DNA of 48,401 bases from Flammeovirgaceae bacterium (GTDB taxonomy: Bacteria > Bacteroidota > Bacteroidia > Cytophagales > Cyclobacteriaceae): NCBI GenBank assembly GCA_024638265.1, contig JAHEKQ010000016.1, positions 1 to 48,401 of the forward strand, written 5' to 3'. Made by a program: the position numbers and the translations under genes. Below, piece by piece: positions 3,204 to 48,241 of this stretch. Numbering within the stretch: the first letter of the stretch is position 1; each line of letters opens with the position of its first letter. A model generated the notes under the pieces. That model did no database searches. It was not told the DNA's origin and saw nothing but the letters and a program-made list of their open reading frames with translations.

Positions 3204-3272
3204 AGGATTTAATAAAAAATCTTTGTCATTGGAATACCTTTACAATTAAGGGAATTCACTCATTCATTACGA

Positions 3273-7172: not shown

Positions 7173-7177
7173 TTAAA

Positions 7178-13384: not shown

Positions 13385-13385
13385 A

Positions 13386-13452: not shown

Positions 13453-13468
13453 ATAATCATTAGCGACC

Positions 13469-13476
13469 TACATTTG
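13469..13476 (+). promoter_or_regulatory. Candidate -7 box for ppk2
   Basis: TACATTTG is a perfect match to TAnnTTTG and would start transcription about 45-50 bases before the ppk2 ATG. No TTTG -33 box is visible at the expected distance; that position falls in the AT palindrome array, which might instead supply activator binding. Confidence 0.35.
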
Positions 13477-13528
13477 CTGTTACGGTCAAAATAAGCGTTC
13501 TTTGCAATGTTTTAAGCATTTTATATCT

Positions 13529-14380: not shown

Positions 14381-14381
14381 C

Positions 14382-14792: not shown

Positions 14793-14921
14793 GCCTGATA
14801 TTATATTTGCGTTCGTTTCGGGGTAAAATTAGAAACTTCTGTTCTGAAATAATAAAAATTAGATATACTTTCAGATTACATTCGATTTAGTCAAATAAAC
14901 TCTTTCAATAACAAATAAATC

Positions 14922-16643: not shown

Positions 16644-16645
16644 GC

Positions 16646-18385
16646 TTAGTGGAATTCACTGTAGGACTCTTCCTTTTTATCCATAGAGGGATACCGAATA
16701 CTCTCAGTAAGTTCACGTACTTCATGGGGTGGTGCTGATGTAAAGGCCCGAACGGTGAGAGCCACTGCAAAATTAATGATCATCCCCAGCGTCCCTATTC
16801 CTTCTGGGCTGATCCCAAACCAATAATCCTCGGGGTGTCCCGGACCACCCAGGGCAGGTTTAAAATACCAGATATAGACCGATGTGAAGAGGATCCCCGT
16901 AATCATGCCTGCAATAGCCCCTTGTTTATTCATGCCCTTGTAAAAAATACCCATTACAATAGCCGGAAAAAATGAACTGGCTGCCAGACCAAAGGCGAGT
17001 GCCACTACCTGGGCTACAAATCCGGGTGGATTTATCCCGGCCCATCCTGCAATTATGACTGCGAACGCAATCGCTATTCTCGCTGCCCTCAATTCGCCCT
17101 TTTCGGAGATATTTGGCATCAAGTTATTTTTTAACAGATCATGTGAAATCGAAGTGCTGATCACCAGAAGCAGTCCGGCTGCAGTTGATAAGGCTGCAGC
17201 AAGCCCTCCTGCCACTACCAGTGCTATCACCCAACTTGGCAATCCCGCAATCTCCGGATTTGCCAGGACCATGATATCATTATCAACACTCAGCTCGTTG
17301 CCTGACCAACCATTATTTTCGGCAGTCTCGGAAAACTCCTGGTTCAGGTCGTTATAATACTGGACACGTCCGTCCCCGTTTTTGTCTTCAAATCTCAGTA
17401 ACCCGGTAGTCTGCCAATTATCAAACCATGGTGGTAAATCTGAAATCTCGCGGTTATTCACCGTTTCAAGGAGATTGGTCCTGGCAAAAGCCGCTACAGC
17501 AGGGGCAGTTGTGTAGAGGATAGCGATGAAAAACAATGCATAGCCCGCAGATATCCTGGCATCCTTTACCTTGGGAACAGTAAAAAACCTCACGATCACA
17601 TGGGGAAGCCCCGCTGTGCCCAGCATCAGGGCGGCAGTGATAAAGAATACATCAATTTTGGGTTTAACTCCCGAAGTATATTCCGCAAAGCCCAGTTCCC
17701 CGTGCAATTGATTCAGTTTGTCCAGTAGATAAATATTTTCTGCTGTTTTTCCTCCGAATCCCACTTGGGGTACGGGATTGTCCACTAACAGGATTGAAAT
17801 GAATATGGCGGGCACCAGGAAGGCAAAAATCAGTACGCAATATTGAACTACCTGGGTATAGGTGATTCCCTTCATCCCTCCCAATACTGCATAAATAAAT
17901 ACGATGCCCACTCCAATAATGACCCCGGTGGCAAGATCAACTTCAAGGAATCGGCTGAACGCAATACCCACTCCCTTCATTTGCCCCACTACATAGGTGA
18001 AAGAAACAAAAAGTGCACATACAACAGCCACAAGCCTTGCCGTTTGGCTGTAATAACGTTCACCTATAAAATCCGGGACTGTAAATTTCCCGAATTTCCT
18101 CAGGTAAGGTGCTAGAAGCAGTGCGAGTAGTACATAACCCCCGGTCCATCCCATCAGGTATTGTGCTCCATCATATCCCATAAAGGAGATCAGGCCGGCC
18201 ATTGAAATAAATGAGGCTGCAGACATCCAGTCAGCAGCAGTGGCCATTCCATTGGCGAGAGGTGATACTCCTCCTCCGGCCACGTAGAAATCGCGTGTTG
18301 AACCCACTCGCGACCAAATAGCTACCCCTATGTAAAGCGCAAAAGTGATCCCCACGATCAAGAAAGTCCATGCCTGGATATCCAT
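16646..18385 (-). CDS. Sodium:solute symporter, large subunit (SSS family)
   Basis: A 579-residue inner-membrane transporter with about 13 helices, of the ActP-like branch of the solute:sodium symporters that works with a small DUF4212 subunit (VC_2705 type). Seen in the sequence: YVAGGGVSPLANGMATAADWMSAASF (about 34-58), FGKFTVPDFIGERY, and late helices with AGGLAAALSTAAGLLLVISTSISHDL. The likely substrate is a small carboxylate such as acetate, but this is inference. A hydrophilic loop in the middle contains DKNGDGRVQYYND, which looks like a calcium-binding EF-hand loop. The start overlaps the small-subunit stop in TAATG. The C-terminus is cytoplasmic and charged. Confidence 0.9.
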   Translation of the reverse strand: MDIQAWTFLIVGITFALYIGVAIWSRVGSTRDFYVAGGGVSPLANGMATAADWMSAASFISMAGLISFMGYDGAQYLMGWTGGYVLLALLLAPYLRKFGKFTVPDFIGERYYSQTARLVAVVCALFVSFTYVVGQMKGVGIAFSRFLEVDLATGVIIGVGIVFIYAVLGGMKGITYTQVVQYCVLIFAFLVPAIFISILLVDNPVPQVGFGGKTAENIYLLDKLNQLHGELGFAEYTSGVKPKIDVFFITAALMLGTAGLPHVIVRFFTVPKVKDARISAGYALFFIAILYTTAPAVAAFARTNLLETVNNREISDLPPWFDNWQTTGLLRFEDKNGDGRVQYYNDLNQEFSETAENNGWSGNELSVDNDIMVLANPEIAGLPSWVIALVVAGGLAAALSTAAGLLLVISTSISHDLLKNNLMPNISEKGELRAARIAIAFAVIIAGWAGINPPGFVAQVVALAFGLAASSFFPAIVMGIFYKGMNKQGAIAGMITGILFTSVYIWYFKPALGGPGHPEDYWFGISPEGIGTLGMIINFAVALTVRAFTSAPPHEVRELTESIRYPSMDKKEESYSEFH

Positions 18386-34012: not shown

Positions 34013-34468
34013 TCAGTATCCCTTTTTACGCCTGACACTCTCGAAAAACCGATGAATCAACTCCTCTGATTCACTGGCGAGAACCCCTCCTGAAACTTCA
34101 GTCTTAGGATGTTTAAGATATTCACCTGCTTGCTTGTATCCTCGTTTATCATCTGAAGCTCCATAAACGATACGCCCAAGCTGAGCCCAATAGCTGGCAC
34201 CAATACACATAACACAGGGTTCAAGCGTAACGTATAGAGTGCATTCCTTGAGGTACTTAGAACCAATTTGATTGGCAGCGGAGGTAATGGCCAGCATCTC
34301 GGCATGCGCTGTACTGTCTTTCAGGAGTTCAGTTTGATTTCGGGACTTGGCGATGACTTTCTGTCCGGATACCATAACAGCACCAACGGGCACCTCCCCC
34401 TCATCCAATGCAGCCTCCGCCTCGCGAAGTGCCATCTTCATGAAATATTCGTCATCGAATACAATCAC
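34013..34468 (-). CDS. tadA: Nucleoside deaminase, probable tRNA(adenine34) deaminase
   Basis: A 151-residue zinc deaminase of the TadA/CDA fold. Zinc and catalytic motifs are AHAEM (histidine ligand and proton-shuttling glutamate) and LEPCVMCIGA (two cysteine ligands). TadA deaminates A34 of tRNA-Arg to inosine; some close relatives act on guanine or free nucleosides, so the tRNA role is the most likely but not the only one. The start is a GTG at 34468 in the GTGA overlap with the upstream gene; it gives the conserved N-terminus VFDDEYFMKMALREAEAA, which the first downstream ATG would cut. Confidence 0.85.
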   Translation of the reverse strand: MIVFDDEYFMKMALREAEAALDEGEVPVGAVMVSGQKVIAKSRNQTELLKDSTAHAEMLAITSAANQIGSKYLKECTLYVTLEPCVMCIGASYWAQLGRIVYGASDDKRGYKQAGEYLKHPKTEVSGGVLASESEELIHRFFESVRRKKGY

Positions 34469-35013
34469 ATTCCCTTGATTTTAATGCTGTTCAAAATACC
34501 AGGAACAACAGGAATATATTCTTCTTTTTGACGCTCCGGGCATCGAAAGCTGAACACAAGGGTCCTCCCTAATCCCAGGAAGTACATAATGTAATTGTAT
34601 TTCCTGTCCGAAGGCTGATCGTTGTCGCCCGCCAGGTATGATTCGAACTCAAAATAAATGAATTTCTGCTTATTGATGGTTTTTACCCCCTCGTCGATCA
34701 TTTTCACCCGATCAAATAGGTTATAAATCCCCGCCTTAAAGAATCTGCTTGCAATTTCTGTATCAGTTTTTCGCCATTGGGTCGCTGAGACTTTTACGTT
34801 GAAATCAGTCATCCTGTCCACACTGGAATACGCCGCCAGTGGATTTCGGACCGATGGAATCCTCAGGACCATATCTTCCGGTGTCATCTGATAAAAATCC
34901 TTGGGAACCTTGAGCTTTATATTTCCATCCGCCAACTTCACCTTTTGCATGGGTTGCGCAAGGCTTAATGAAATACTCAAAAGGAGACAAACAAACGAAA
35001 GGGTTAATTGCAT
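34465..35013 (-). CDS. Secreted protein of unknown function
   Basis: A 182-residue protein with an N-terminal signal peptide (LTLSFVCLLLSISLSLAQ, cleavage after LAQ). The mature part begins VKLADGNIKLKVPKDFYQMTPEDMVLRIP and contains KTINKQKFIYFEFESYL and YNYIMYFLGLGRTLVFSFRCP, a pattern of two-sheet domains seen in small lipid- or protein-binding periplasmic proteins. The fold is not recognised with certainty. I start at the ATG at 35013; a TTG at 35031 would add six residues. Its stop overlaps the tadA start in GTGA, although the two functions seem unrelated. Confidence 0.75.
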   Translation of the reverse strand: MQLTLSFVCLLLSISLSLAQPMQKVKLADGNIKLKVPKDFYQMTPEDMVLRIPSVRNPLAAYSSVDRMTDFNVKVSATQWRKTDTEIASRFFKAGIYNLFDRVKMIDEGVKTINKQKFIYFEFESYLAGDNDQPSDRKYNYIMYFLGLGRTLVFSFRCPERQKEEYIPVVPGILNSIKIKGM

Positions 35014-35050
35014 AATCGGGTTTTTTACCAAAAGCTGCTAAAATCGTGCA

Positions 35051-37097: not shown

Positions 37098-37625
37098 CTA
37101 TTTGAATGTGCTGCGGATGGCAGATTTTGCTATGTAAATTCCAATTTCTTCATCGGAGAGTCCCGAAATTTTCAATCGATCCACACCAGGACGAGCAATA
37201 ACTTCCTCACGACCTCCCTTCACTTCACTAATCACCTCACTAAACCAAATTACCCCCTGGCTAAGGCTATCAAGGTAGATTCTCAATATTTTCCCATCCT
37301 CTTCAATTGGTTCCTCGCGAAGGACATGCAAGGTATGATGAGGGATCATAAGGGTATCATTTGAAACGGGAATACCTGATTCTACTTCTCCATAATAGGG
37401 CCATCCGGAATCTGCACTATTATTGGTCAGGTAATAGGATCTAGGCCGATTCAGATAAGAATTAATGTATCCTCTAACGGAAGCAGATGATTCGGTATTC
37501 AGAGAATCAATTATAAAGAATCTGAATAGTTCAGAATCGGCTAAACGTGATTGTTGCGGGCCGCTTCCGCAACCCGCAACAATGACAAATATAACCATAA
37601 ATAAGCCGATGTACTTTCTTTCCAA
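37098..37625 (-). CDS. Lipoprotein of unknown function, last gene of the electron-transfer operon
   Basis: A 175-residue lipoprotein (signal with FMVIFVIVAGC; cysteine 19). The mature part has helical and strand segments such as LADSELFRFFIIDSL, VRGYINSYLNRPRSYYL, ILRIYLDSLSQGVIWFSEVIS and a C-terminal GLSDEEIGIYIAKSAI. It contains no heme motif. The start is a TTG at 37625 with a preceding purine-rich AAGAG; the first ATG would leave too short a signal. The gene lies 10 bases after the cytochrome c gene in the same direction, so it is likely co-transcribed and may be an assembly or accessory protein for the system. Function unknown. Confidence 0.7.
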   Translation of the reverse strand: MERKYIGLFMVIFVIVAGCGSGPQQSRLADSELFRFFIIDSLNTESSASVRGYINSYLNRPRSYYLTNNSADSGWPYYGEVESGIPVSNDTLMIPHHTLHVLREEPIEEDGKILRIYLDSLSQGVIWFSEVISEVKGGREEVIARPGVDRLKISGLSDEEIGIYIAKSAIRSTFK

Positions 37626-37635
37626 CTCTTAAAGT

Positions 37636-38037
37636 CTATTTGAAAGTTCTCATATAATGAACAATAAGCCACCTGTCTTCCTCTAACGGAATTTTCTTGG
37701 TGAATTCAGGCATTTCATCCCTGCCAACAGTTAGTTTGTAGTACAAAGTCCCATCACTTTGCTTTTGAAATTCTTCTGCGGTAAAGTCACCCGCGAAGGT
37801 GTCCAACTCTTCAGCCTTGGAACCATCTCCAAGACCTTCTTTACCATGACAGGACTGGCAATGTTTTGCGTAAAGCTGTTTACCTATGGCGAGATTTTCC
37901 TTATCTGCCGGATAAGGATTTTTCTTTTTTGCCTCTTCGGCAGGAACTTTCCAGTCGCTGTTTTGATATAACACTCCGCTGAATGACAGGAGCCCTACCG
38001 CTATTAAGACAAAAAATAAATTCATCACTTTTTTCAT
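37636..38037 (-). CDS. Monoheme cytochrome c, periplasmic or membrane-anchored
   Basis: A 133-residue class I cytochrome c. N-terminal hydrophobic segment MNLFFVLIAVGLLSFSGVLY may be an uncleaved anchor or a signal peptide. One heme site C60QSCH64, with Met109 in GRDEMPEF as the probable sixth ligand, and the C-terminal helix EEDRWLIVHYMRTF typical of the fold. It would accept electrons from, or give electrons to, the NrfD/ferredoxin pair encoded just upstream. Only four bases separate it from the membrane-anchored Ig-like gene. Confidence 0.92.
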   Translation of the reverse strand: MKKVMNLFFVLIAVGLLSFSGVLYQNSDWKVPAEEAKKKNPYPADKENLAIGKQLYAKHCQSCHGKEGLGDGSKAEELDTFAGDFTAEEFQKQSDGTLYYKLTVGRDEMPEFTKKIPLEEDRWLIVHYMRTFK

Positions 38038-38041
38038 TTCA

Positions 38042-38878
38042 TTATTGTTTAGATCTACTAATTAAGTACAAATAATATACCAGATATATCAAAGTTCCCC
38101 AAACACCCAGTATGATAAGGTTGGGGAAAACCAACAACCATAAAGGAGTTTTATTCGCTGGGGCCCACATACTACGTTCATCAAAACTTGTATCGGGTTC
38201 ATAAGGTATTCCATAATTCACTTTTTCTTCGTGAAATACGGCTCCGGTATCATCACCTTCCAGTCTGATTCCCAGTGTCACCAGTCCGTCCAGATCACCG
38301 GGCAGCATTTCCTCCAGGCTGAATTCAAATTCCCCGTTATCATCCGTAAATTCAATCTCTGATAACCAGTGCGGGGCGAAGTACCTTGAAACATATAATC
38401 TTACTTCAGCCTCACTGACAGGACCATTATCCATACTTTTCCTGGATTGAACCCTTACTGAAGCAACTGAATCTTCACTGATTTCAACCTTAAAATCTAT
38501 TTTAATGGGAGTTATGGATATCTCCTCATCAACATCCCGGAAACCATCCTTGTTTTCAACGGAAGCGACGAAATGCCACATGCCCATGCTATCATATTCA
38601 AGTGTAGAAATATCACCAATGCTCATGGTAGCTTCTCCAGAGTGATTGGTATTTGAATCACCAAGTAGCTTCTTATCCCCATCAATCACTGTATAAAAAA
38701 GAATTCCTAATCCATGAATATTCTCATACCTTCTCCCCACCCTTGTCCGGGCTTTGGCCGTAAGGAATGCTTCCTGATTCTCCATTTTATAACTCAAACT
38801 GAGTCTGACAGTAGCTTCTTCCTGGGCTTCCACGGTAAATGAAATCAAGACCAAAAAAATCAGAATTCTAGCTTTCAT
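38042..38878 (-). CDS. Exported Ig-like protein with C-terminal membrane anchor
   Basis: A 278-residue protein. Signal peptide at 1-18 (ILIFLVLISFTVEAQ), an all-beta periplasmic part with two probable immunoglobulin-like domains (about 20-130 and 130-235; the second has EAEVRLYVSRYF and DDNGEFEFSLEEMLPGDLDG, like carboxypeptidase-regulatory or CNA-B folds), and a C-terminal helix (PLWLLVFPNLIILGVWGTLIYLVYYLYL) near 244-272 that would anchor it with the body outside. It overlaps the NrfD-like gene by 11 bases. It carries no cofactor motif and could be a docking or sensor subunit of the membrane complex. No known family is recognised with confidence. Confidence 0.7.
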   Translation of the reverse strand: MKARILIFLVLISFTVEAQEEATVRLSLSYKMENQEAFLTAKARTRVGRRYENIHGLGILFYTVIDGDKKLLGDSNTNHSGEATMSIGDISTLEYDSMGMWHFVASVENKDGFRDVDEEISITPIKIDFKVEISEDSVASVRVQSRKSMDNGPVSEAEVRLYVSRYFAPHWLSEIEFTDDNGEFEFSLEEMLPGDLDGLVTLGIRLEGDDTGAVFHEEKVNYGIPYEPDTSFDERSMWAPANKTPLWLLVFPNLIILGVWGTLIYLVYYLYLISRSKQ

Positions 38879-40169
38879 GACTCGATGTTTTTTTCATGTG
38901 ATCAGAAAACTCCTGGATAGGTATAATGGGAAGAAACCTTACCAGGATGGTAATAATCAGAAGTGCCATAGTTAAAGTACCCAATGTTATCGCCCATTCC
39001 ATCCATGTAGGGGAATATCCAGCCCATGATTCCGGGACACCCTGGATAGGCATAGAAGGATGCAGCAAAGTCGGGGTAACTATCAGGTAGCGTTTCCACC
39101 ACGAGGTTATAACTACAATTACCGAGATGACAAATAAGGGGAACGGACGCCTCCATTTTCTAAATAACAATAGAATGACGGGCATTACGAGTCCAAAACC
39201 TATCACAGACCAGAATAATGGTGCATAGTGGCCAAATAGCATAGAATAGATATGTATTTCCTCTTCTTTCTTAAGCTTAAAAGCCGGAATCAGATATTCG
39301 TTGAGGTTGAAATACAGGTAAACCAGGCAGAGCATGACCAAAAGCTTACCCATCTTGTTAAAATGTTCATCGGTAATATATTTCTCAAGCTGGTAATGCC
39401 TTCGCAATAAGTACATGGCCGCTATAACTCCACCTGCCCCAACAACAAAGGCCCCGGAAACAAAATATGCACCAAAATTGGTACTGTCCCACCCGGGACG
39501 AAACGTTGTGGCAAATAACCAACTGGTAACCGTATGGATACCGAAAGCAACCGGTATTATTAAGACAGAGAGAATAAAGATACCTCGCTGATGAAGTTTT
39601 TCCTGGAGTTTGCTGCCATTCCAATTGATGGCCAGTCTTTTGTATCCTTTTTGTATCCAGCCGGGATTACCCTTTTCATTTTTGAGAATGGCAAAATCCG
39701 GGATAAGGGGAAAATAAAGCAACATCAGGGAAATGAATAAGTAGGTGGTTATTACTATTACATCCCAGATGATGGGTGATTGCAAACGCCCGTGGATAAA
39801 AAGGTTCATTAACCGATCGGGGCGTCCCATATCCACAATAATGGTAAGACCCGCCATAATAATTGCTGCCACGGCAATGATTTCCGAGATTCTGGTCAAG
39901 GGGATACTCCATTCTGCCCCCGACAAACGTAAAATAGCGGTGACTAGGGATCCTACCAGGCTAATGGCAACAAAAAAAACAAAATTGGAGATGTAGATAC
40001 CCCAAAAAGCGTAATCACGCATCCCGGTGATAACCAGACCATCTTGTATTTGCCTGTAGTATGCCCAGATGCCAATCAAAGTCATAATTACCAACACTAC
40101 AGTCCAAATCCGACCCCATAATCCAAATGGCCTGGGTTTCAAATCGTTCACAAGGTTTGAGTCGATCAT
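38868..40169 (-). CDS. NrfD/PsrC-type integral membrane quinone-interacting subunit
   Basis: A 433-residue polytopic protein with about nine or ten helices, of the NrfD/PsrC family that exchanges electrons between the quinone pool and a periplasmic iron-sulfur subunit. Typical features: AYYRQIQDGLVITGMRDYAFWGIYISNFVFFVAIS at the first helices, GRPDRLMNLFIHGRLQSPIIWDV, GIHTVTSWLFATTFRPGW, and LNEYLIPAFKLKKEEEIHIY. The gene overlaps the ferredoxin gene start in ATGA, as in true NrfCD or PsrBC pairs. Neither a molybdopterin subunit nor a multiheme NrfA is encoded in the operon. Confidence 0.9.
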   Translation of the reverse strand: MIDSNLVNDLKPRPFGLWGRIWTVVLVIMTLIGIWAYYRQIQDGLVITGMRDYAFWGIYISNFVFFVAISLVGSLVTAILRLSGAEWSIPLTRISEIIAVAAIIMAGLTIIVDMGRPDRLMNLFIHGRLQSPIIWDVIVITTYLFISLMLLYFPLIPDFAILKNEKGNPGWIQKGYKRLAINWNGSKLQEKLHQRGIFILSVLIIPVAFGIHTVTSWLFATTFRPGWDSTNFGAYFVSGAFVVGAGGVIAAMYLLRRHYQLEKYITDEHFNKMGKLLVMLCLVYLYFNLNEYLIPAFKLKKEEEIHIYSMLFGHYAPLFWSVIGFGLVMPVILLLFRKWRRPFPLFVISVIVVITSWWKRYLIVTPTLLHPSMPIQGVPESWAGYSPTWMEWAITLGTLTMALLIITILVRFLPIIPIQEFSDHMKKTSSHES

Positions 40170-41089
40170 GGTTGCTCAGTATTTTCTAAACTGTCTTGCT
40201 TAAACTCAGAGTAATTTTCCAAACCCTCTTCGAAATCATACAGACGATTGGAGGGGGGCAGGTAGTAGACACTTGGATGCGTCCCGTAAGATTCCATTTC
40301 ACGGTATGCAGCCCTGTCTTTTATCAGCTTACTGAAGCGAAAAGTCTCAGATCCGTTGGTTACAGTATCCTCATATAGATCTCCAAAAAAGAAAACCGAG
40401 TTTGGACAGGCGGTAACACAATGGGGTAGTTCCCCTTTCTCAACAACATCAGGACAAAAGTCACATTTTCCCACGGTGCCTTTTTGAGGTGGCCAACTGG
40501 TTTCCGGTGATTCAAGGGCGTGTTCCACATCTGCTACAGCCGAGGGTTCTTCCCAGTTGAATACCCTTGCGGAGTAAGGACAGGCAGCCATACAGAACCT
40601 GCACCCGATACACCGGTCATTGTCAACCAGTACAATTCCATCCCTGCGCTTAAATGTTGCATCTACCGGGCATACTTTTACGCAGGGTGGTTTATCGCAA
40701 TGTTGACAAAGCATGGGTTGCCAGTAGGGTGCTGTCTTCTCAGAATCGCTCATTTTAAGGACTTTCAACCAGTCATTGGGGGTGGATGCGGAGTGCATCT
40801 TATTACAGGCTGAAACACACTTCCTTGCATTGGCACATCTTGCCAGGTCGATAACCATGACAAATTTGCGATTCTTCATTCCTTCCCTTACCCGGATATC
40901 ATCCTTGATTGTTTCCTCCACCTGATCTCTTCTGACTTCTATGATATTGCCATCCTGGTCCAGTATCTGCACCATTTCAGAATCTTTCTGCCTGGTACAG
41001 GATTCAGAAAGGCCTAACACAGCCACTGAACCTGCTACCGCAGCTGAAGTTTTCAGGAAGTCTCTCCTATCATTATCGGTTCTTTTCAT
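40166..41089 (-). CDS. Tat-exported 4Fe-4S ferredoxin (NrfC/DmsB-like) with a lost cluster cysteine
   Basis: A 307-residue periplasmic iron-sulfur protein with four cluster motifs. The signal carries the twin arginine RRDFLKTSAAVAGSV (8-22) and ends near GLSESC31, which may be a Tat lipoprotein cleavage. Cysteine groups are C85-A88-C91-C95 (second position replaced by alanine), C128-C131-C136-C140, C160-C163-C166-C170 and C209-C212-C224-C228. Fifteen of the usual sixteen ligands are therefore present, so one cluster may be 3Fe-4S or use another ligand. It should pass electrons between the NrfD-type subunit and periplasmic cytochromes. It overlaps the preceding small gene by 17 bases. Confidence 0.92.
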   Translation of the reverse strand: MKRTDNDRRDFLKTSAAVAGSVAVLGLSESCTRQKDSEMVQILDQDGNIIEVRRDQVEETIKDDIRVREGMKNRKFVMVIDLARCANARKCVSACNKMHSASTPNDWLKVLKMSDSEKTAPYWQPMLCQHCDKPPCVKVCPVDATFKRRDGIVLVDNDRCIGCRFCMAACPYSARVFNWEEPSAVADVEHALESPETSWPPQKGTVGKCDFCPDVVEKGELPHCVTACPNSVFFFGDLYEDTVTNGSETFRFSKLIKDRAAYREMESYGTHPSVYYLPPSNRLYDFEEGLENYSEFKQDSLENTEQP

Positions 41090-41282
41090 GGTTCTGGTGG
41101 TTTGGTTTATTTATCCAGGTAACTATTTCTTCATGCGAGGCACCCTTCTTTGTGACAACCCTTCCCTTGATCTTGACCAAACGGCCATCCCTGGTCAGAA
41201 AATAGTTCTTCTTTTCCTCGTCATTCAGTGATTCAAACCAGGGAATCAATCTTCTGATAAATTGTCTTCTTTCAGTTTTCAA
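41073..41282 (-). CDS. Small twin-arginine-like protein of the electron-transfer operon
   Basis: A 69-residue protein beginning MKTERRQFIRRLIPWFESL and containing a short basic sheet-like part (YFLTRDGRLVKIKGRVVTKKG). The start is a TTG at 41282, 10 bases after the upstream stop with GAAGAA before it; the last 17 bases overlap the ferredoxin gene. ERRQFIRR resembles a twin-arginine signal core but no hydrophobic segment follows, so export is doubtful. Short length, operon position and tight spacing suggest a real gene, perhaps a chaperone or remnant signal domain. No family recognised. Confidence 0.55.
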   Translation of the reverse strand: MKTERRQFIRRLIPWFESLNDEEKKNYFLTRDGRLVKIKGRVVTKKGASHEEIVTWINKPNHQNHEKNR

Positions 41283-41292
41283 TGTTCTTCAG

Positions 41293-42204
41293 TTAGAAAT
41301 TCCACAATCTTGTCATATTAAATCCTATCAGGAACTTTGATGCATCCGGAGAACCGTTGTATGCATAATTATATTGTGGTACTATGTCATAATACCGACC
41401 GGCAAATATCTGGAAGGCATGGCCGCTTGTGGACATCTCCAAGCCGAAGGAAATATTGGGCCGGTAATCAAAGTCGCCTTCCCCTTCATAAAGGCCTACA
41501 ACCGGACTATCATAGGCAAGTAACAGTGAAATGGTTGAACCAACTTTATACCTTGCTTTTGCCGATATTCCAATAACATCATTCCTGTAGAGTGTATCAG
41601 GGGTAGCTCCTTCCAGTTTATAAAAGCTTTTCTCCATCCCATTAAAATGGCTGAAATTACCTGATAACTGTACGGAGAGATTCATGTTCACGCGAACTGC
41701 AACCATCAGCTCATGGTAAAATGACCATCTCTGAAGGCCGTTGAAAATATTGTCCTGGCCGGCATCAACCACGGCGTTTCCAAAATAACTTACACTTACG
41801 GGAGTACTCCAGTCTCTCGTCTGTTTGAGAATGGAATACTTGACATTAAAATCAATGAGATTATCATTTTTCGTGTTGCCAAAGCCCACCATCAGGTTTT
41901 CAACGGGAACATAGGAAAATCCGAGTCGGATATTCGAAGGACTGTATATTCCCCACAATGACCTCAGATTTACACCGCTGTCCCTGTTGACATCAGTATT
42001 TATCCTGCCAAAGCGGTGCTGTATGTCCCATTCAAACGTACCCTTGGAAGGTACAATAATCGTCTGACCATCAATTAACCAAATGCTCTCGAAAGGAGCT
42101 CTTACCGGACGTGGCTTCTGTGTTTGTTCTCCTTCCTCCTGTGCGAGAACTGCCGCAGGAAGACAAAGAATCAATGACAAAGTAAGAAGAAAAATATTTT
42201 TCAT
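41293..42204 (-). CDS. Outer-membrane beta-barrel protein (DUF5777-like)
   Basis: A 303-residue exported protein; signal peptide to about residue 22 (LPAAVLAQ). The mature protein alternates strands and turns over its length (FEWDIQHRFGRINTD, NIRLGFSYVPVENLMVGFG, DFNVKYSILKQ, PVSVSYFGNAVVD, FYHELMVAVRVNMNLSVQL, HAFQIFAGRYYDIVPQYNY) and ends in phenylalanine (MTRLWNF), the outer-membrane C-terminal pattern. It resembles the DUF5777 beta-barrel family common in Bacteroidota near cytochrome genes. The ATG at 42204 immediately precedes the signal. It may form the outer-membrane channel for the cytochromes of this operon (inference). Confidence 0.82.
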   Translation of the reverse strand: MKNIFLLTLSLILCLPAAVLAQEEGEQTQKPRPVRAPFESIWLIDGQTIIVPSKGTFEWDIQHRFGRINTDVNRDSGVNLRSLWGIYSPSNIRLGFSYVPVENLMVGFGNTKNDNLIDFNVKYSILKQTRDWSTPVSVSYFGNAVVDAGQDNIFNGLQRWSFYHELMVAVRVNMNLSVQLSGNFSHFNGMEKSFYKLEGATPDTLYRNDVIGISAKARYKVGSTISLLLAYDSPVVGLYEGEGDFDYRPNISFGLEMSTSGHAFQIFAGRYYDIVPQYNYAYNGSPDASKFLIGFNMTRLWNF

Positions 42205-42217
42205 CGTCTTGAATTTT

Positions 42218-42595
42218 TTATTGTTCACACTCTTCCTTGGCACCCCCATTGATCCAAGAAAGAATAATTGCTTTTTCCACGTCGGTAGCCAGGTCCTTCA
42301 TACTTCCGACCGTAATCTTTAAATACAGTTCGGACTGGTCTGGATTCAGCGTATCGATCAAGGTTGATTGAGTTAAATTCAGGTAAGCATAGCTCTCTGA
42401 AAGATCGGGGTAAACTCCTCCTGTATTATGACAGCTGATCGCCGCACAACTATTCACAAAAACAGGTAATACTTCATCGGTCCAACAAACATTTTCCGGA
42501 GCTTTTACAGGTTCAATCTGTTCATATACACAACCCGTTAACTGAATCATTATTATCAGTAGCGCGGGAATAAAATATCGTAGTCGATGTAGCAT
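42218..42595 (-). CDS. Cytochrome c lipoprotein with a CX4CH heme site
   Basis: A 125-residue lipoprotein (QLTGC22). The heme site is C50-AAIS-C55-H56, a CX4CH variant known in Bacteroidota and Planctomycete-type cytochromes, instead of CXXCH. Met99 in VGSMKDL is the likely sixth ligand, and ILSWINGGA is the usual C-terminal helix end. The sequence after the lipid cysteine, GCVYEQIEPV, is nearly identical to that of the next upstream gene product (GCVYEQIKPL). One base separates the two genes. Surface or periplasmic orientation of the lipoprotein is not known. Confidence 0.85.
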   Translation of the reverse strand: MLHRLRYFIPALLIIMIQLTGCVYEQIEPVKAPENVCWTDEVLPVFVNSCAAISCHNTGGVYPDLSESYAYLNLTQSTLIDTLNPDQSELYLKITVGSMKDLATDVEKAIILSWINGGAKEECEQ

Positions 42596-42596
42596 T

Positions 42597-43838
42597 TTAT
42601 TTGAATTCCATATTTATTAAAGCAGTACCCACTTTATTCAACTCATCGTTATCATAGAGATTTATCCTTAATTGATAGACCAGGGAGGGGTCGAACTGAA
42701 TATCCTCTGTACTGCCTGTATTTAGTTTTCTCACAAATAAAACCTTGTACCCGCTGGTATTTTCGCTCGGTAAGTTGCCAAAAATTACATTCGATGCGGT
42801 TTGAATATCAGAAGTGGCTCCGTTTTGGTTTTCCAGGTAATATCCGGGTACTCCCGAGAATCCTCTCATCCTTGTGATTATGTCATTCTTCTCAACGGAT
42901 GTGAGTCCATCCCAGTATGACTTTCCGGAGTGATTGTCAGAACCAATACGTGCTTCAAATCCAGTTCTCGGGGTAGTATTCCATTCCCCCGGCTTATTGA
43001 GTGCTTTCCCTGTATTCCATTCATAACCGTCGCCATCCCCCCCAACTCCATGACAACGGGCACACTCATTTTGATAGACGGTTTCCCCGGCATTGATGTC
43101 GCCTTGAAATGCCAATTTTTCCGATAGAAAATACCTTGGATCAAGTAAGGTTAATCCACCAATACCCCTTACATATTCCTGAGAAGTGCCGTCCCACTCA
43201 TACATGGGGCCTGATCTAAGATCTGAACCGGCCATATTCGGGTAAAAAAGTTTGTCTCCTGTATCGACTGAAGGCACCCCGTAATCAAACATATCGATGG
43301 CGAATCCCATGGGAGCTGAAAGGGCCAGATTCCACTGCCAGATGTCTGTACTGTTTTGATCTATTGGAAACTCAATCTCAATTTTGTCATTACTTCGCTG
43401 ACTTGTCCAGCCATCAGTAGACCCAGCTTTGAGTGGGTCCGGCTTTCCATTGTACACCCAGTGCCTGTTATCTGCATTATGGGTTCCGTCCTTCCATTCT
43501 GCCAGGATGTAGATGTATTCATCATCATACAAACCACGGAGAATCAGCTCAGGATCTTCACCACCATTAAAATCGGTCAGTCCATTATACGTGCCAGATA
43601 TATTAAAAAGACCATCCTCTGCTCCCACTTCCCCTGTTACCACATCAGAGACCGATGGAATTACAAAGTCTACGTAATTCCAGGCATTGGCATTGACGGT
43701 ATTGGGAATTGACTGGGTTTTGGCCAATTCAAATTGACTGGTTTCCTTGGGAGGTGGCGGAGGTCCGAGTGGTTTAATCTGCTCATATACGCAACCTGTT
43801 GCAAGAAATATAAGTGTGGTACATACGAGCACTTTCAT
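42597..43838 (-). CDS. Lipoprotein with ethylbenzene-dehydrogenase-type heme domain and inserted cytochrome c
   Basis: A 413-residue lipoprotein (ATGC16). Residues about 95-215 match the heme-b-binding gamma-subunit fold of type II DMSO-reductase enzymes (LILRGLYDDEYIYILAEWKDGT; DKIEIEFPID; QWNLALSAPMGFAIDMFDYG). A cytochrome c domain follows with C259ARCH263 (about 240-325), and the C-terminal part (VLFVRKLNTGSTEDIQFDPSLVYQLRINLYDNDELNKVG, about 365-405) looks like the last strands of the first domain, so the cytochrome is probably inserted into it. Two hemes, one b and one c, would lie in one polypeptide. It is the first gene of the nine-gene unit and has no promoter of its own that I can see. 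Confidence 0.85.
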   Translation of the reverse strand: MKVLVCTTLIFLATGCVYEQIKPLGPPPPPKETSQFELAKTQSIPNTVNANAWNYVDFVIPSVSDVVTGEVGAEDGLFNISGTYNGLTDFNGGEDPELILRGLYDDEYIYILAEWKDGTHNADNRHWVYNGKPDPLKAGSTDGWTSQRSNDKIEIEFPIDQNSTDIWQWNLALSAPMGFAIDMFDYGVPSVDTGDKLFYPNMAGSDLRSGPMYEWDGTSQEYVRGIGGLTLLDPRYFLSEKLAFQGDINAGETVYQNECARCHGVGGDGDGYEWNTGKALNKPGEWNTTPRTGFEARIGSDNHSGKSYWDGLTSVEKNDIITRMRGFSGVPGYYLENQNGATSDIQTASNVIFGNLPSENTSGYKVLFVRKLNTGSTEDIQFDPSLVYQLRINLYDNDELNKVGTALINMEFK

Positions 43839-43872
43839 TTCACTGGGGTTTTAATACTAAAAAATGAAAAGG

Positions 43873-43908
43873 AAAAAAAAGGAGATCTACAGATCGTAGA
43901 TCTCCTTT
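43873..43908 (-). terminator. Strong hairpin after the YceI lipoprotein gene
   Basis: AAAGGAGATCTAC and GTAGATCTCCTTT form a 13-bp stem with loop AGATC (43878-43908). On the minus strand it is followed by a run of eight T residues (43873-43880). Because the next gene begins within 40 bases and no promoter is seen there, the nine-gene operon may depend on read-through of this terminator. Confidence 0.8.
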
Positions 43909-43915
43909 CACCAAA

Positions 43916-44971
43916 CTATAGGGTTTTCCTCAACTGGATGGTCGAATATACCTCTACGTCGTCATCTACCTGGCTTGCTGTGATACTAAAATCACTTTCC
44001 GCCCTGAAGACAAATTTTGCTTCAAAACTGGAATATTGTGTGCCATCGCTCACATAGCCGTCAATAAACTTGAAGAAGGCTACTACTTCAGCTTCTACTC
44101 CATTAAAGTTCATCGTACCCTTCGCACGGTAGCCATCGCCATAGATTTCAATATCATCATTTCTTTGCGTATCAGATGGATCACACCAGAAAATTGCTGT
44201 GACATCGTTTGTCAAGACTGTATTCAAACCGCGGCCTACTGCAGCACCTAGATATTCAGTCAAGCAACCTGCATAGAACCATTCCACTACATTGCCCTGG
44301 TTATCGAGGCTGTCCTGTCCTTCGACAGAAGATTCAGTGGTATAGCGTCCGTCTCTACCAGGTTGTCCTGTTTTAATGGTCCGTAGATCGACTTCTGCCC
44401 AGATTGTACTATTGTCCAAATCGCCGTCGTCAAACTCGAAAGCAAAATCATAACTGTCAAAGTTACCGGAGAAAGTTCCGTTAAATTCCCTGTAGGGGAA
44501 TTCAAAAACAACTTCTGAATGAGATCCGTCAACTGTCCAGGCACCTGTAGTACTTACAGCAACACCGGACGGACTGCTGTTCTCAAGGGTTATGTCCGAA
44601 GCGGCATTCGCCGCAATAACGGATACTGCCTGGGGAGTGGATGAGAATTTCATTCCACCTAATCTTCCACTACTGTTGGTATTCTCAGAGTCAAAGTTTG
44701 CCCAGATAAAATAGTCGCCTCCCCTGATATTGCTAAGGGTATAGGCACCAAAGTCATCTGATATAGCCATTGCTATATAGTTCGTGGAAGTGGCGGATTC
44801 AGTAAGGTAAACTACTGCTCCTTCTGCATTCTCCGATCCGTCAGGAAGGACAACGGTTCCACTAATAGAATAAAGAGGTATCTCAACCTCTTCCGTCGTA
44901 GTACATTGGACTATTAATGCTAATAATCCAACTGCTGCGAATAGGGATAAAAATGTTTTAAAAGATTTCAT
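43916..44971 (-). CDS. Lipoprotein with carboxypeptidase-regulatory-like and YceI-like domains
   Basis: A 351-residue lipoprotein (LIVQC23). Residues 32-130 form a carboxypeptidase-regulatory-like beta domain (YSISGTVVLPDGSENAEGAVVYL; GAYTLSNIRGGDYFIWANF). Residues about 142-350 resemble YceI, a lipocalin-like fold that binds polyisoprenoid quinones (WTVDGSHSEVVFEFPYREFNGTFSG; DGYRAKGTMNFNGVEAEV; EAKFVFRAESDFSI). A loop of about 60 residues with Cys236 and Cys263 is inserted, perhaps disulfide-linked. I start at the ATG at 44971. Quinone binding would suit its place next to a quinone-linked electron-transfer operon. Confidence 0.8.
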   Translation of the reverse strand: MKSFKTFLSLFAAVGLLALIVQCTTTEEVEIPLYSISGTVVLPDGSENAEGAVVYLTESATSTNYIAMAISDDFGAYTLSNIRGGDYFIWANFDSENTNSSGRLGGMKFSSTPQAVSVIAANAASDITLENSSPSGVAVSTTGAWTVDGSHSEVVFEFPYREFNGTFSGNFDSYDFAFEFDDGDLDNSTIWAEVDLRTIKTGQPGRDGRYTTESSVEGQDSLDNQGNVVEWFYAGCLTEYLGAAVGRGLNTVLTNDVTAIFWCDPSDTQRNDDIEIYGDGYRAKGTMNFNGVEAEVVAFFKFIDGYVSDGTQYSSFEAKFVFRAESDFSITASQVDDDVEVYSTIQLRKTL

Positions 44972-45052
44972 AATAACAGCTTTATGGTTCGTAATTTGAA
45001 ACAAGTTATAACACGCTTCAAAGCCGCTATGTGATCAGAAGCAGAAAATCAG

Positions 45053-45066
45053 ATGATATATATCAT
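45053..45066. promoter_or_regulatory. ATGAT-N4-ATCAT palindrome upstream of the YceI lipoprotein gene
   Basis: ATGATATATATCAT is a perfect 14-bp palindrome with the TGAT-N4-ATCA core of Fnr-type sites, 82-95 bases before the ATG at 44971. A partial -7 box (CGGCTTTG, 45019-45026) would place its centre near -44. The same core occurs upstream of the neighbouring yceI gene. Confidence 0.5.
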
Positions 45067-45092
45067 GTTATTTCTTGACCTGGGTAAATACG

Positions 45093-45117
45093 AAAAAAAA
45101 CCGCCTAAAAGACGGTT
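45093..45117 (-). terminator. Terminator after the secreted YceI gene
   Basis: AACCG...CGGTT (45099-45117, with one internal mismatch, loop TAAAA) forms a short stem followed on the minus strand by an eight-T run (45093-45100). It separates this yceI gene from the next. Confidence 0.65.
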
Positions 45118-45136
45118 GATTTGAAACAGTCAAAAC

Positions 45137-45703
45137 TCAAAAACTCGAAGCTGATGCATAGGTCAATGAAAACTTAACTTTAAGGTCATCGCCTGTTTTA
45201 ATGGTTCCGAACATGGCTGTTGGGGGATCCACATCGAAATCTGTCATTTTTAGATTGTATTCGCCCGTAAACTTCACTTTACCACCTCCATATACTGCAT
45301 TGACGTTCATTACTGCCGTATTGGTTTTACCTGCGATCGTAAGGTCTCCTTTCCCTGTGATCTTATAAGTAGATCCCGTTTTAGTGATCGAGGTTATATC
45401 GGAAAGTTCAAAGGTAATCCATTCATGATCATCCGTTTTCATGGCATCATAACAAATTCTATCCATGGTACCCTTTCCACTCTTCAGGGTACGTGTCTTC
45501 ATCTTGAAAGATAAACTTCTGATATCCTTCAGTTCAGATCCTTCCAATAGAAAATCTGCAGTTCCCTGGCCATCATTAGAGACCATCTCCCAATCGTGAA
45601 GGGTGGAAGTACCCCAGATTTCCATTTTTAAATCGTCACTCACCCTGAAGCTTTGAGCCCCGGCGAAGAATGGAATTAGCAACAATATGATTAAGTATCT
45701 CAT
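45137..45703 (-). CDS. Secreted YceI family protein
   Basis: A 188-residue exported protein (signal MRYLIILLLIPFFAGAQ). It has the single YceI lipocalin-like domain: MEIWGTSTLHDWEM, SLSFKMKTRTLKSGKG, HEWITFELSDITSITK, YKITGKGDLTIAGKTN, VKFTGEYNLKMTDFDVDPPTAMFGTIKTGDDLKVKFSLTY. Members bind isoprenoid quinones or fatty-acid-like ligands in the periplasm. The HDWEM and final FGTIKTGDDLKV patterns are typical. It has its own terminator and a Fnr-type palindrome 60-73 bases upstream, so it seems to be a separate, regulated unit beside the cytochrome operon. Confidence 0.92.
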   Translation of the reverse strand: MRYLIILLLIPFFAGAQSFRVSDDLKMEIWGTSTLHDWEMVSNDGQGTADFLLEGSELKDIRSLSFKMKTRTLKSGKGTMDRICYDAMKTDDHEWITFELSDITSITKTGSTYKITGKGDLTIAGKTNTAVMNVNAVYGGGKVKFTGEYNLKMTDFDVDPPTAMFGTIKTGDDLKVKFSLTYASASSF

Positions 45704-45757
45704 TCTGTGTATTTGATATTAGTTTGGTAAGGCGAAGGTCAAAAACTATTCTAAGCT

Positions 45758-45784
45758 GTTAAATGATTAAGATCATAATTTAAC
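45758..45784. promoter_or_regulatory. Inverted repeat with ATGAT-N4-ATCAT core upstream of yceI
   Basis: The 27-bp repeat GTTAAAT...ATTTAAC contains ATGATTAAGATCAT (45763-45776), which has the same core as the site at 45053-45066. The centre is about 66 bases before the ATG at 45703, with a TAGTTTTTG -7-like box (one base longer than consensus) at 45740-45748. A Crp/Fnr-type regulator is the best guess. Confidence 0.5.
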
Positions 45785-45802
45785 GTGATGTTAATCTCAA
45801 GG

Positions 45803-48241
45803 CTATTCCCAACTTGCTCCCACCAGTTTGAATGCGCCCCAGTAATAAGTTTCCTGGTATTTATCTTTCATTTTATTCCGGGTTTCTTTCAGTGAAGCAT
45901 ACGGATCAAGTTTCTGTTCAACCAATTGAGAATAAAACTCTGACATAAATTCCCTTGTTGCTGAATCATCTACTTTCCACATACTCATGAGGGTAAAATC
46001 AACCCCATTGACTTCAAAAGCCCTTTGCAATCCGTATACTCCTTCCCCACTCTGAATCTCACCTAAACCCGTATCACAGGCCGATAAAACCGCTATCCGC
46101 GTGTCCCTAAGATTTAATCCGGCTGCTTCATAAGCGGTCAGAATCCCATCCTCTCCTTCTTCCGGATTCCCGGCCAATAATAACCCGCTGTTTAGCATAG
46201 CATTTCTTGATCCAGCATTTTGTCTGAAAATACCATGGGTCGCCACGTGTAAAATGGGACAACCTGACAATTTCTTCAATTCATTTTCACTGGCCGATAA
46301 ACCCATAAGTACCCTGCTATTTCCCTCATTCCTGTTCAGCATAACTTCAATTTCTGTGACCTCGATGGCCGTTTCGGGGAGGGGTTCAGGTTTGATCCCC
46401 TCATAATGATCAAAATCAGGATTACCTACCAGGCAAGCCTTCAACTCCAATGGGTTTCCGGTAGTTTTTACTTCATTTAAGCGACGGATACTCGTCAAAT
46501 TTATCAGGTTGATCTTTTCAAAGAGGTATTTTTCATTTTCTGTATCCCACAGGTTATCAGGATTCATCAAATTGTAGATTCCATCGGGCGAAAAATAGAT
46601 TTTGCCCCAATTCTCTTCTTCCACGTTCAATGACTTCCAGAAAGCATCATAGCTTAAAGTATCTGTCAATCGATATTTAATGGAATTATTGTAATAGTTG
46701 ATGTACCTGTTTTCAAGCTCTAAACCATTCTCCACCAGGCTGATATTATTAAACCCACCATTGTCCAGATGAAACACGAGGTAGACGGCATCCTCTTGCT
46801 TTTTCCATTCTCCGCTTCTGTTCTTAGTGGGAGAAGAAGTGTCCACCCTGAGAAGCTCAATAATTTTATCCCTCGGTTTTAAATCTTTCAGAATATCCTC
46901 GATGTCCAGGGAATCAACACTGGAAACGGGCAATGCCGTGAGCAACACTCGTTCCAGCTTTATAATCTCACTCTCAATATTCTGAATGGCCTCAAACTCA
47001 TTTTTATATTTCTTGGAAGAGACCATAAAAGCGAATTGATTTTTCAGAAATTTCCAGGCTTCATATTGGCTGTGAAGTGAGTCGGCAAACAGCTCTTCTT
47101 TCTGATATAATCGAGTTGATTCGTTCAGGATCAGCCCTTTTGTCCTCGTATTGTAATCGAGAACCTCCACCCAAAAAGGGTCATTGTTCCCGATAAGATC
47201 TCTACTCCAGGCTTCGATCATCACCTTGTTCATCTTGTTAAATAGTTTCCTGTGTCGAACCTGGAAGTTTTCTTTCTCATATTCACTAAGCAATGAGAAA
47301 TTTCGGGAAATGTAATTGATCTCTTTTTCAGCCGCTTGCCTGATGAGTCCCTTGATCCCTTCAATATCCTCATGAAAGAGGTGAAGATGTGAGCGCTGAA
47401 CCAGTACTTCATTGAGAACAGGCAAATCCACCCTGATATTTTTCAGGTAAAGTTTAAATGCGCGGTCATTCCATTCCTGTGCCCGTTGAACTCTACCCAT
47501 CAGGTACAGGACCTCAGACAATGTGTTCATTGCCCTTACACGTTTTACCGTGTTCTTTCCCTCTTCCCTTTTTGTCCAGCTGTGCTTCTGAAGACGTTTA
47601 GCATTTCTCGCATATTTTTTTGCCTCCTCCAGGTTTCCCGCATCAAGGGCCATTTCACTCAGAATCTGAAAGCCATCGGCATAGCGGTTGATTTCGAGAT
47701 GTCCGGTATAGTTTGAATTTCTGATATTAAAGAGGTACTCCTCAATATAGTATTTAGCACTGTCAGGCTGATTTCTCTGATAGAATAGAAGTCCTTTAGC
47801 GAGGTAAGGCCTGAAGTTAGTGGGGTTATTCTTAAAGTATTTCCCCACCCGGTTAGCCAGTGAAAATTCAATCCACTTTTCTGCTTCGAGAAAATTCCCG
47901 GCTCGAATGGAATAGAGGGCAAATTCATCAATTACATCATAATCCGAGAGGGTCAGCCTGTCTCCCGAATCGTACTTCACCTGTACATATTCCAGGGCGG
48001 AATTCAGATATTTCTGTGCTTCAGGTAAATCCCCCAGTGCCTCATATAATCTTCCCATGGCCAGCATGAGAGGGAGCCTCGCAGCTCTGTCTTTTTTCTC
48101 AAGTGTTTCCAGTTTTTCAAGCCCATATTCTTCTGCTGCTTTGAAGTTTTCTCGTTTGATCAAGTGTGTAACTTTGGAAGCCTGCCCCATTGAAGAATGG
48201 GTCAACAGCAGGAAAATTAGATATAGCAGAAACCGACGCAC
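45803..48241 (-). CDS. Exported TPR-CHAT protease
   Basis: An 812-residue protein with a signal peptide (FLLYLIFLLLTHSSMGQ). The first 400 residues are tetratricopeptide-like helical repeats (LMLAMGRLYEALGDLPEAQKYLNSALEY; EWNDRAFKLYLKNIRVDLP). The C-terminal CHAT domain is a caspase-like cysteine peptidase with His669 in HVATHGIF and Cys722 in LSACDTGLGEIQSGEGVYGLQRAF, so the dyad is intact. CHAT proteins with TPRs are often intracellular signalling or defence proteases, but the signal peptide puts this one in the periplasm or outside. The GTG start overlaps the stop of the upstream gene (TAGTG). Target unknown. Confidence 0.88.
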   Translation of the reverse strand: MRRFLLYLIFLLLTHSSMGQASKVTHLIKRENFKAAEEYGLEKLETLEKKDRAARLPLMLAMGRLYEALGDLPEAQKYLNSALEYVQVKYDSGDRLTLSDYDVIDEFALYSIRAGNFLEAEKWIEFSLANRVGKYFKNNPTNFRPYLAKGLLFYQRNQPDSAKYYIEEYLFNIRNSNYTGHLEINRYADGFQILSEMALDAGNLEEAKKYARNAKRLQKHSWTKREEGKNTVKRVRAMNTLSEVLYLMGRVQRAQEWNDRAFKLYLKNIRVDLPVLNEVLVQRSHLHLFHEDIEGIKGLIRQAAEKEINYISRNFSLLSEYEKENFQVRHRKLFNKMNKVMIEAWSRDLIGNNDPFWVEVLDYNTRTKGLILNESTRLYQKEELFADSLHSQYEAWKFLKNQFAFMVSSKKYKNEFEAIQNIESEIIKLERVLLTALPVSSVDSLDIEDILKDLKPRDKIIELLRVDTSSPTKNRSGEWKKQEDAVYLVFHLDNGGFNNISLVENGLELENRYINYYNNSIKYRLTDTLSYDAFWKSLNVEEENWGKIYFSPDGIYNLMNPDNLWDTENEKYLFEKINLINLTSIRRLNEVKTTGNPLELKACLVGNPDFDHYEGIKPEPLPETAIEVTEIEVMLNRNEGNSRVLMGLSASENELKKLSGCPILHVATHGIFRQNAGSRNAMLNSGLLLAGNPEEGEDGILTAYEAAGLNLRDTRIAVLSACDTGLGEIQSGEGVYGLQRAFEVNGVDFTLMSMWKVDDSATREFMSEFYSQLVEQKLDPYASLKETRNKMKDKYQETYYWGAFKLVGASWE

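Follow-up and report, generated by a model that had tools for sequence, protein, structure and literature searches.

A molybdopterin-free iron-sulfur/NrfD gene cassette with a predicted DUF5777 outer-membrane unit in Bacteroidota

Contig JAHEKQ010000016.1 of a Flammeovirgaceae bacterium (GenBank assembly GCA_024638265.1, a draft genome of 3.6 Mb) was analysed over its full length of 48,401 nucleotides, referred to here as the window. It carries a minus-strand cassette of genes, labelled A to K (Table 1), that encodes an NrfD-family membrane subunit (D), a ferredoxin exported by the twin-arginine translocation (Tat) pathway (E), an immunoglobulin (Ig)-like anchor (C), a monoheme cytochrome c (B), a small protein (F), a DUF5777 outer-membrane barrel (G) and two heme-motif lipoproteins (H and I). 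The cassette is real, conserved and patchily distributed, and no description of it was found in the open-access literature that we searched. We give an even chance to the proposal that it forms a quinone:cytochrome c module, free of molybdenum, coupled to an electron unit in the outer membrane, with electrons being passed outward.

The module would consist of D, E, C and B together with F, and the outer unit of H, G and an exchangeable lead gene, here I with J and K. D would oxidise menaquinol at a site close to the periplasmic side, E would conduct the electrons through its iron-sulfur (FeS) clusters, B would shuttle them across the periplasm, and H, G and I would hand them to an acceptor located at the outer membrane or farther out. 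The basis for this proposal comprises the genes themselves, their conservation, the lack of a conserved molybdopterin subunit, the variability of the outer part, and a link to porin-cytochrome genes in loci that have no barrel. An initial annotation of the locus had already traced a path that links menaquinone with the outer membrane. That porin-cytochrome genes are exchanged for the barrel unit supports such a path, while flow along it, its direction, the substrate or acceptor, and extracellular transfer are what we infer.

A conserved gene set without a molybdopterin subunit

GTDB r220 (one genome per species) was scanned with an alignment of three NrfD proteins, yielding 575 matched stretches, 477 of which were confirmed by tblastn as relatives of D. 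The best 80 of these 477 were analysed, giving 81 loci with the window. Record titles assign the 80 to Bacteroidota lineages, except for L091, a metagenome-assembled genome labelled Bifidobacterium breve, a label that is probably wrong. Cultured isolates among the scan records include Niastella vici, Chryseolinea serpens, Limnovirga soli and Solitalea agri. Many of the 81 loci are cut by contig ends; as they stand, D was present in 81, E in 78, B in 72, C and the small-protein family at the F position in 67 each, G in 63 and H in 56. Among the 44 well-flanked loci (at least 4.5 kb upstream and 2.5 kb downstream of D), B was found in 44, E in 42, G in 41, C in 37 and H, by BLAST, in 34, and a small CX2CH/CX4CH protein lay no more than two genes from G in 38 of the 41 that bear G. 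The loci are partly non-independent, with L077 and L081 being near copies by their gene lists. In most loci the core is complete: a small Tat-type protein, a Tat FeS protein, NrfD, a two-Ig anchor and a monoheme cytochrome c. Because the gene set recurs in other Bacteroidota, a chance assembly is excluded. D was detected at E <= 1e-60 in 8 of 296 evenly sampled Bacteroidota genomes, counting the window's own and G204, whose 40% D homolog lies in a different cluster; the cassette is thus patchy, not universal.

The initial annotation had described nine packed genes at 37098-43838. All nine open reading frames (ORFs) are present on the minus strand, spaced by -17 to +13 bases when the start of G is set at 42204, and the proposed gene identities held up, through Pfam matches (Fer4/TAT, NrfD, Cytochrome_CBB3, DUF5777) and heme motifs and, for the Ig-like anchor, through a structural model. 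The limits of the block had to be redrawn: the conserved locus extends upstream to the YceI genes J and K, up to 45703, which had been missed, and gene A, which had been included, is barely conserved (homologs in two other loci, 3/81 counting the window). Transcription would run in the order K, J, I, H, G, F, E, D, C, B, A, with gaps of 132 bases between K and J and 77 bases between J and I. Genes were called as the longest ORFs that do not overlap, a procedure that will misplace some starts. In the closest locus, L042 (D at 70%), the K-to-A order is the same as in the window, with one extra gene, of 469 amino acids, between the homologs of K and J.

No molybdopterin subunit is conserved with the cassette. 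The initial annotation had noted this lack at the one locus; gene-order comparison across Bacteroidota bore it out, with strong conservation and no conserved molybdenum gene. For genome-wide searches 47 of the 80 loci were chosen, mostly long-flanked ones, of which 46 loci in 45 genomes were covered (L103 was left out), and the molybdopterin oxidoreductase family PF00384 was sought in 47 carrier genomes, representing 45 of these loci plus genomes G160 and G091. PF00384 had no match on the window's contig and four elsewhere in its genome; it had none in 8 of the 47 carriers, in which drafts can miss genes, and in eight further carriers every match was weak and lay in an ORF of 1,017-1,095 amino acids. 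A motif scan of the window's non-overlapping ORFs found only CQSCH, CAAISCH and CARCH as CX2CH/CX4CH motifs, and no multiheme ORF. With no linked PF00384 match and no multiheme ORF in the window, the locus falls outside both the complex iron-sulfur molybdoenzymes (Psr/Ttr) and NrfABCD.

The ferredoxin carries a trace consistent with this. The second cysteine of group I is absent from E in 23/23 representatives and is kept in 8/10 outgroup ferredoxins, the other two, both Nap-linked, having tyrosine; the remaining 15 cysteines of E are kept in all 33 alignment rows. Across the 81 locus proteins the lost cysteine is replaced by alanine in 43, leucine in 28 and valine in 7; two more were counted as cysteine and one as lacking the pattern, these three being uninspected. 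A histidine four residues past the last group-I cysteine is found in 23/23 module E proteins, and also in four DsrO proteins. In NarH-type proteins group I ligates the cluster nearest the catalytic subunit, so the change in E would fit the loss of a catalytic partner. Cluster I of E may be [3Fe-4S] or have a non-cysteine ligand.

D exceeds the PF03916 cut-off of 25.8 bits, placing it in the NrfD superfamily, and neither D nor E has a c-type heme motif. The four best PDB matches of D, at 150-156 bits, are all chains of NrfD type: one bears the name Alternative Complex III subunit C, and we take the other three to come from the same complex. Aligned by phmmer, residue D113 falls opposite His139 of chain 6f0k_C, and His139 of R. 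marinus ActC has been named as a quinone-site residue (PMC8076601; papers are cited here by PMC number for the excerpts of their text that were available). In the 19 of 23 module rows in which the pattern was found, the equivalent position is aspartate in 16 and cysteine in 3, and the quinone-site serine is kept in 19/19, both positions being pointed out in the same source; the WD pattern that comes after is kept as well. ActC Asp253 aligns with L218 of D (phmmer) and is not kept.

For C, the AlphaFold2 model (predicted local distance difference test, pLDDT, 89.9) has beta-sandwich domains, which we read as probably two Ig-like domains, and one C-terminal helix (246-277); its Foldseek matches are beta-sandwich proteins. 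The F family is Tat-type in many relatives. By BLAST, the F of the window itself matches 5 loci, window included, and it has no clear hydrophobic stretch. An LxxDGxxVxV-like stretch is common to F and to the linker of E between Tat signal and clusters, and F resembles a copy of that part of the linker.

Phylogenetic trees placed all module E proteins in one clade (support 100/99). Module D proteins split into two groups, one of 20 rows (99/99) and one of three paralogs (G013 a and b, and G004) placed beside the ActC-type rows and G204. All of the module D, ActC-type and G204 rows stood apart from DsrP and the Nap-linked NrfD proteins (98/98); some outgroup branches are long, leaving the deeper order unsure. 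In genome G013, contig C31 (loci L029/L030) holds three paralogous FeS-NrfD-Ig modules, and between two of them lies an ImcH-like gene of 500 amino acids with six CX2CH motifs and a NapC/NirT domain. An ImcH-like protein was rejected as a general partner: homologs of this gene were found in 2 of 52 carrier genomes (43 loci plus nine additional genomes), namely G013 and G004.

The outer unit and exchange with porin-cytochrome genes

The model of G is a 12-strand barrel (pLDDT 83.9), with porin NanC as its best PDB match (template-modelling score 0.52 by query length). CX2CH or CX4CH was present in 52/53 relatives of H. H and I share the lipobox-like start stretch GCVYEQI, because of which both are likely lipoproteins. 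While I scores just under the cut-off of the EB_dh family (heme-b type, PF09459; Table 1), the lead proteins of L088 and L048 reach 65.9 and 62.5 bits.

The lead gene is the variable part. Typed by BLAST at 1e-5 against four kinds of reference, it was a diheme cytochrome in 11 of the 44 well-flanked loci, EB_dh in 10, YceI in 9, EB_dh with YceI in 1 and EB_dh with a hexaheme protein in 1; none was detected in 12. Two hexaheme lead examples match multiheme families, one having an MtrC/MtrF-like domain. YceI genes stand immediately ahead of the heme lipoprotein in several loci.

DUF5777 was present in 44/45 carrier genomes and in 110/296 sampled Bacteroidota genomes. Three well-flanked loci are without G (L073, L106 and L111), and all three are in genomes with porin-cytochrome-type multiheme genes. 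In L073 the order F-E-D-C-B is followed directly by NHL, 11-heme, 4-heme, NHL and 5-heme genes, a 659-residue barrel and an 11-heme gene, the gene upstream of F being on the opposite strand; this was the only one of the 45 genomes without a DUF5777 match (1e-10). In L098 the order B-F-E-D-C is followed by an opposite-strand gene and then by a 362-residue protein, a 5-heme/OmpA protein, a 653-residue barrel and a 13-heme protein. The same genome contains L048, whose D is sister to that of L098 (100/100) and which has an EB_dh lead, H and G. In our view, the replacement of the H/G/lead set by a porin-cytochrome set is most simply explained if the two are equivalent partners of a single inner-membrane module, each carrying electrons to or from the cell surface.

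PF09699 matches were absent from 23 of the 45 genomes, numbered one or two in 18 and at least four in four. The genomes of 3/3 loci without G had at least four, against 1/36 with G (Fisher p = 4.4e-4), in a test on 39 of the 44 well-flanked loci (L081, L085, L091, L103 and L115 left out) that rests on three loci and whose statistic and cut of four were chosen after seeing the data. With the porin-cytochrome barrel itself as criterion, the counts were 2/3 and 1/36 (p = 0.012). This barrel family occurred in 3/45 carrier genomes and 1/296 sampled genomes (Fisher p = 0.008), a suggestive enrichment between samples that differ in taxonomy and quality. The ImcH-like query from G013 had no homolog in any of the four genomes with porin-cytochrome-type genes, CymA and CbcL being unsearched.

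Several points weigh against this account, the late choice of statistic among them: the numbers are small and the genomes are drafts. B, H and I of the window have one c-type motif each, and a 12-strand barrel is too narrow to enclose a cytochrome as large conduits do. The contig breaks off at the start of L098, upstream of which H and G could lie. In the genome of L111 (G392) no barrel was matched, only an 11-heme and an NHL-type gene ending a 7-kb contig, and upstream of its modules is a MoaA-type (molybdenum-cofactor synthesis) gene, the sole molybdenum-related neighbour met among loci whose neighbours were viewed without a family-by-family scan. In the genome of L106 (G389) the conduit genes and the module are on different contigs, and the upstream neighbours of L106, on the opposite strand, are QueG-type and DUF1572 genes, with no barrel. 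The window's own genome has no porin-cytochrome barrel. The three paralogous D proteins of G013 and G004 are not grouped with the rest although their E proteins are, indicating that the histories of D and E differ somewhat. Finally, DUF5777 genes outside the module (L169-L178 and L181; eight from carriers, one from the window's own genome, G000:C118 = L177, and two from other genomes) have an adjoining YceI-like gene, confirmed by Pfam in one case (65.2 bits) and by eye or BLAST in the others, and no NrfD; a protein with a heme-type motif is also near most of them. Such sets without D indicate that the outer unit also exists independently.

Table 1. Genes of the cassette in the window
Gene	Product	Position	Strand	Evidence
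K	YceI-family protein, accessory	45137..45703	-	Pfam YceI 47.2 bits; signal-peptide-like start
J	Lipoprotein-like	43916..45004	-	Pfam YceI 47.3 bits; CarboxypepD_reg 23.1 (cut-off 32.3)
I	Lead lipoprotein	42597..43838	-	EB_dh 31.2 bits (cut-off 33.3); Cytochrom_C 28.4 bits; CARCH; FLATGC lipobox-like
H	Small lipoprotein	42218..42595	-	CAAISCH (CX4CH heme motif)
G	DUF5777 outer-membrane barrel	41293..42204	-	Pfam DUF5777 188 bits; start taken at 42204
F	Small protein	41073..41282	-	Small-protein family at same place in relatives; TTG start
E	Tat-exported ferredoxin, 307 amino acids, four Cys groups	40166..41089	-	Fer4 domains and TAT signal (Pfam)
D	NrfD-family membrane subunit, probably quinone-binding	38868..40169	-	PF03916 103.3 bits
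C	Ig-like protein, 278 amino acids, C-terminal membrane helix	38042..38878	-	AlphaFold2 model, Foldseek
B	Monoheme cytochrome c	37636..38037	-	Pfam Cytochrome_CBB3 41.6 bits
A	Small putative lipoprotein, 175 amino acids	37098..37625	-	Outside conserved core

Alternative roles for the module

The module could instead be confined to the periplasm and act as a menaquinol:cytochrome c oxidoreductase, a pared-down relative of alternative complex III whose electrons reach terminal oxidases by way of B; the outer-membrane genes would then have a function of their own and merely be co-transcribed. We judge this somewhat unlikely. The grouping of D with ActC-type rows and not DsrP, its PDB matches, the CBB3-type character of the monoheme cytochrome B and the occurrence of DUF5777/YceI units on their own would all suit such an enzyme. 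So would the COX1-family oxidase and cytochrome c genes a few genes downstream of the module in L028 (the same record as L080); a COX1-family gene near the module was noticed in L028/L080 only, and had no NCBIfam subtype match at 1e-20, and a general link of the cassette to denitrification or a terminal oxidase was rejected. However, G is too constant for a bystander (41/44 well-flanked loci), and porin-cytochrome-type genes are found in the genomes where it is missing. Moreover, the genomes of the window and of G016 already encode another NrfD, which identity places with the ActC kind (29% to D); the window's is like ActC-type genes in nearly all its relatives.

The same path could also run inward: a donor outside the cell or in the outer membrane would supply the lead lipoprotein, and D would reduce menaquinone, possibly translocating charge in the manner of Qrc. 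In favour of this direction, YceI domains point to a lipophilic ligand, and some NrfD complexes do reduce quinone, namely Qrc (PMC13059093) and Nhc (PMC8076601). We think inward flow decidedly unlikely: the loci, whose flanks were viewed without a family-by-family scan, revealed no enzyme specific to a donor. Outward flow in the proposed quinone-to-surface path is a guess, made because of the kinship with ActC and the precedent of SirCD.

A role in metal stress, such as copper or silver oxidation or reduction in the cell envelope, would suit seven of the 44 well-flanked loci (L058, L063, L077, L080, L081, L089 and L109), all lacking a detected lead gene, in which RND-efflux-type genes lie upstream and a cation P-type ATPase lies downstream (gene families verified for L058 and for L028, which shares its record with L080). 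This arrangement was not seen in the gene lists and family tables of the other well-flanked loci, making such a role highly improbable for the cassette.

Molybdenum enzymes do adjoin the closest non-module relatives of E and D, in G204 (molybdenum oxidoreductase, PF00384 131 bits) and in two Nap operons (NapA 950 and 958 bits, cut-off 904). Nevertheless, and even with four PF00384 matches elsewhere in the window's genome (one of them accompanied by separate FeS and NrfD genes), the 40% NrfD homolog of G204 beside its molybdenum oxidoreductase and the MoaA-type gene of L111, a molybdopterin catalytic subunit acting in trans is very unlikely, given the PF00384 counts in carriers and the group-I cysteine that module E has lost and most outgroup ferredoxins retain.

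Besides D, the window's genome has two further PF03916 genes: the ActC-kind gene mentioned above and one that adjoins a molybdenum enzyme (best NCBIfam match PhsA, 423.7 of 694 bits). The latter belongs to a set of Phs/Psr-like molybdenum enzyme, FeS and NrfD genes at G000:C2 (L033), apart from the cassette. The G204 cluster (L137, contig C24) has an 11-heme gene, the molybdenum oxidoreductase, FeS and NrfD genes and, by eye, six-heme, Rieske-like and cytochrome-b-like genes. In L111, at 5846-17696, two tandem FeS-NrfD modules follow the MoaA-type gene and a diheme cytochrome, with no DUF5777 barrel nearby. Near the module in G143, repeated short ORFs resembling a CRISPR array occupy L136 at about 2000-3900.

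Relation to known electron-transfer systems

The initial annotation overstated the oddity of an FeS/NrfD pair without a molybdenum subunit; such pairs are an established kind that includes Dsr, Nhc, Mcc, Cbc4 and SirCD (PMC8076601, PMC11434368). In the open-access literature that we searched we found no paper on DUF5777 and nothing on ethylbenzene dehydrogenase together with NrfD in Bacteroidetes. Putative porin-cytochrome genes have been reported in some Bacteroidetes (PMC6344600), and NrfD is unnamed in the available excerpts of three papers on porin-cytochromes or extracellular electron transfer (PMC6344600, PMC6295460, PMC7399161); the nrfD of PMC4595844 is a Desulfobulbaceae gene.

If the proposed quinone-to-surface path is correct, a sizeable though scattered group of Bacteroidota (477 scan matches; 8/296 sampled genomes) may pass electrons through the outer membrane, and DUF5777 would gain a first functional frame. 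The exchange of outer parts behind one inner module would then be a natural test of how far the components of extracellular paths are interchangeable.

Alternative complex III is the nearest relative of D, in the tree and by PDB matches. The window differs in having a separate FeS protein, not fused to a large ActB, in having one PF03916 match on the contig where that complex has two NrfD subunits, and in having no multiheme ORF; the unfused FeS protein and single PF03916 match set it outside that complex. DsrOP likewise pairs a periplasmic FeS protein with NrfD, and E narrowly misses the DsrO model, with 195.2 bits against a cut-off of 200. Membership was rejected, since D scores 130.5 bits against a cut-off of 350 and lies outside the DsrP group in the tree, and E is without the cysteine that four Chlorobia-type DsrO proteins keep. 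DsrM, DsrK and DsrJ were not found among the 13 Pfam-scanned proteins of 34468-35031 and 37098-48241, and no window ORF has several heme motifs, as the triheme DsrJ would.

Among the porin-cytochrome conduits (Mtr/Pcc), the likeness is an outer-membrane barrel with heme proteins, but these conduits have a large barrel and multiheme cytochromes, whereas the window has a modelled 12-strand barrel and monoheme partners, so that it does not belong with them. A 2018 survey listed three families of quinol oxidases/quinone reductases for extracellular transfer, all multiheme (PMC6295460); the link proposed here between quinone and the exterior is alike, whereas D and E are without c-type hemes by motif. 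SirCD of Shewanella, which can replace CymA in ferric citrate respiration (PMC11434368), and Cbc4 (CbcSTU) of Geobacter (PMC11434368, PMC7894505) share with the cassette an FeS protein, an NrfD-type or b-type membrane partner and the lack of a molybdenum subunit, but no barrel, heme lipoprotein or Ig anchor is described for them in the available part of PMC11434368, the comparison being by description only.

The cassette therefore is of a known kind, the molybdenum-free FeS/NrfD quinone complexes, possibly with a new kind of outer-membrane partner. We suggest, tentatively and with more doubt than confidence, that Bacteroidota have one more kind of quinone oxidoreductase serving extracellular transfer, with a heme-free FeS/NrfD core and a miniature conduit (DUF5777 barrel and monoheme lipoprotein) whose heme-b, diheme, hexaheme or YceI terminus is exchanged, and which can itself be replaced by porin-cytochrome conduits.

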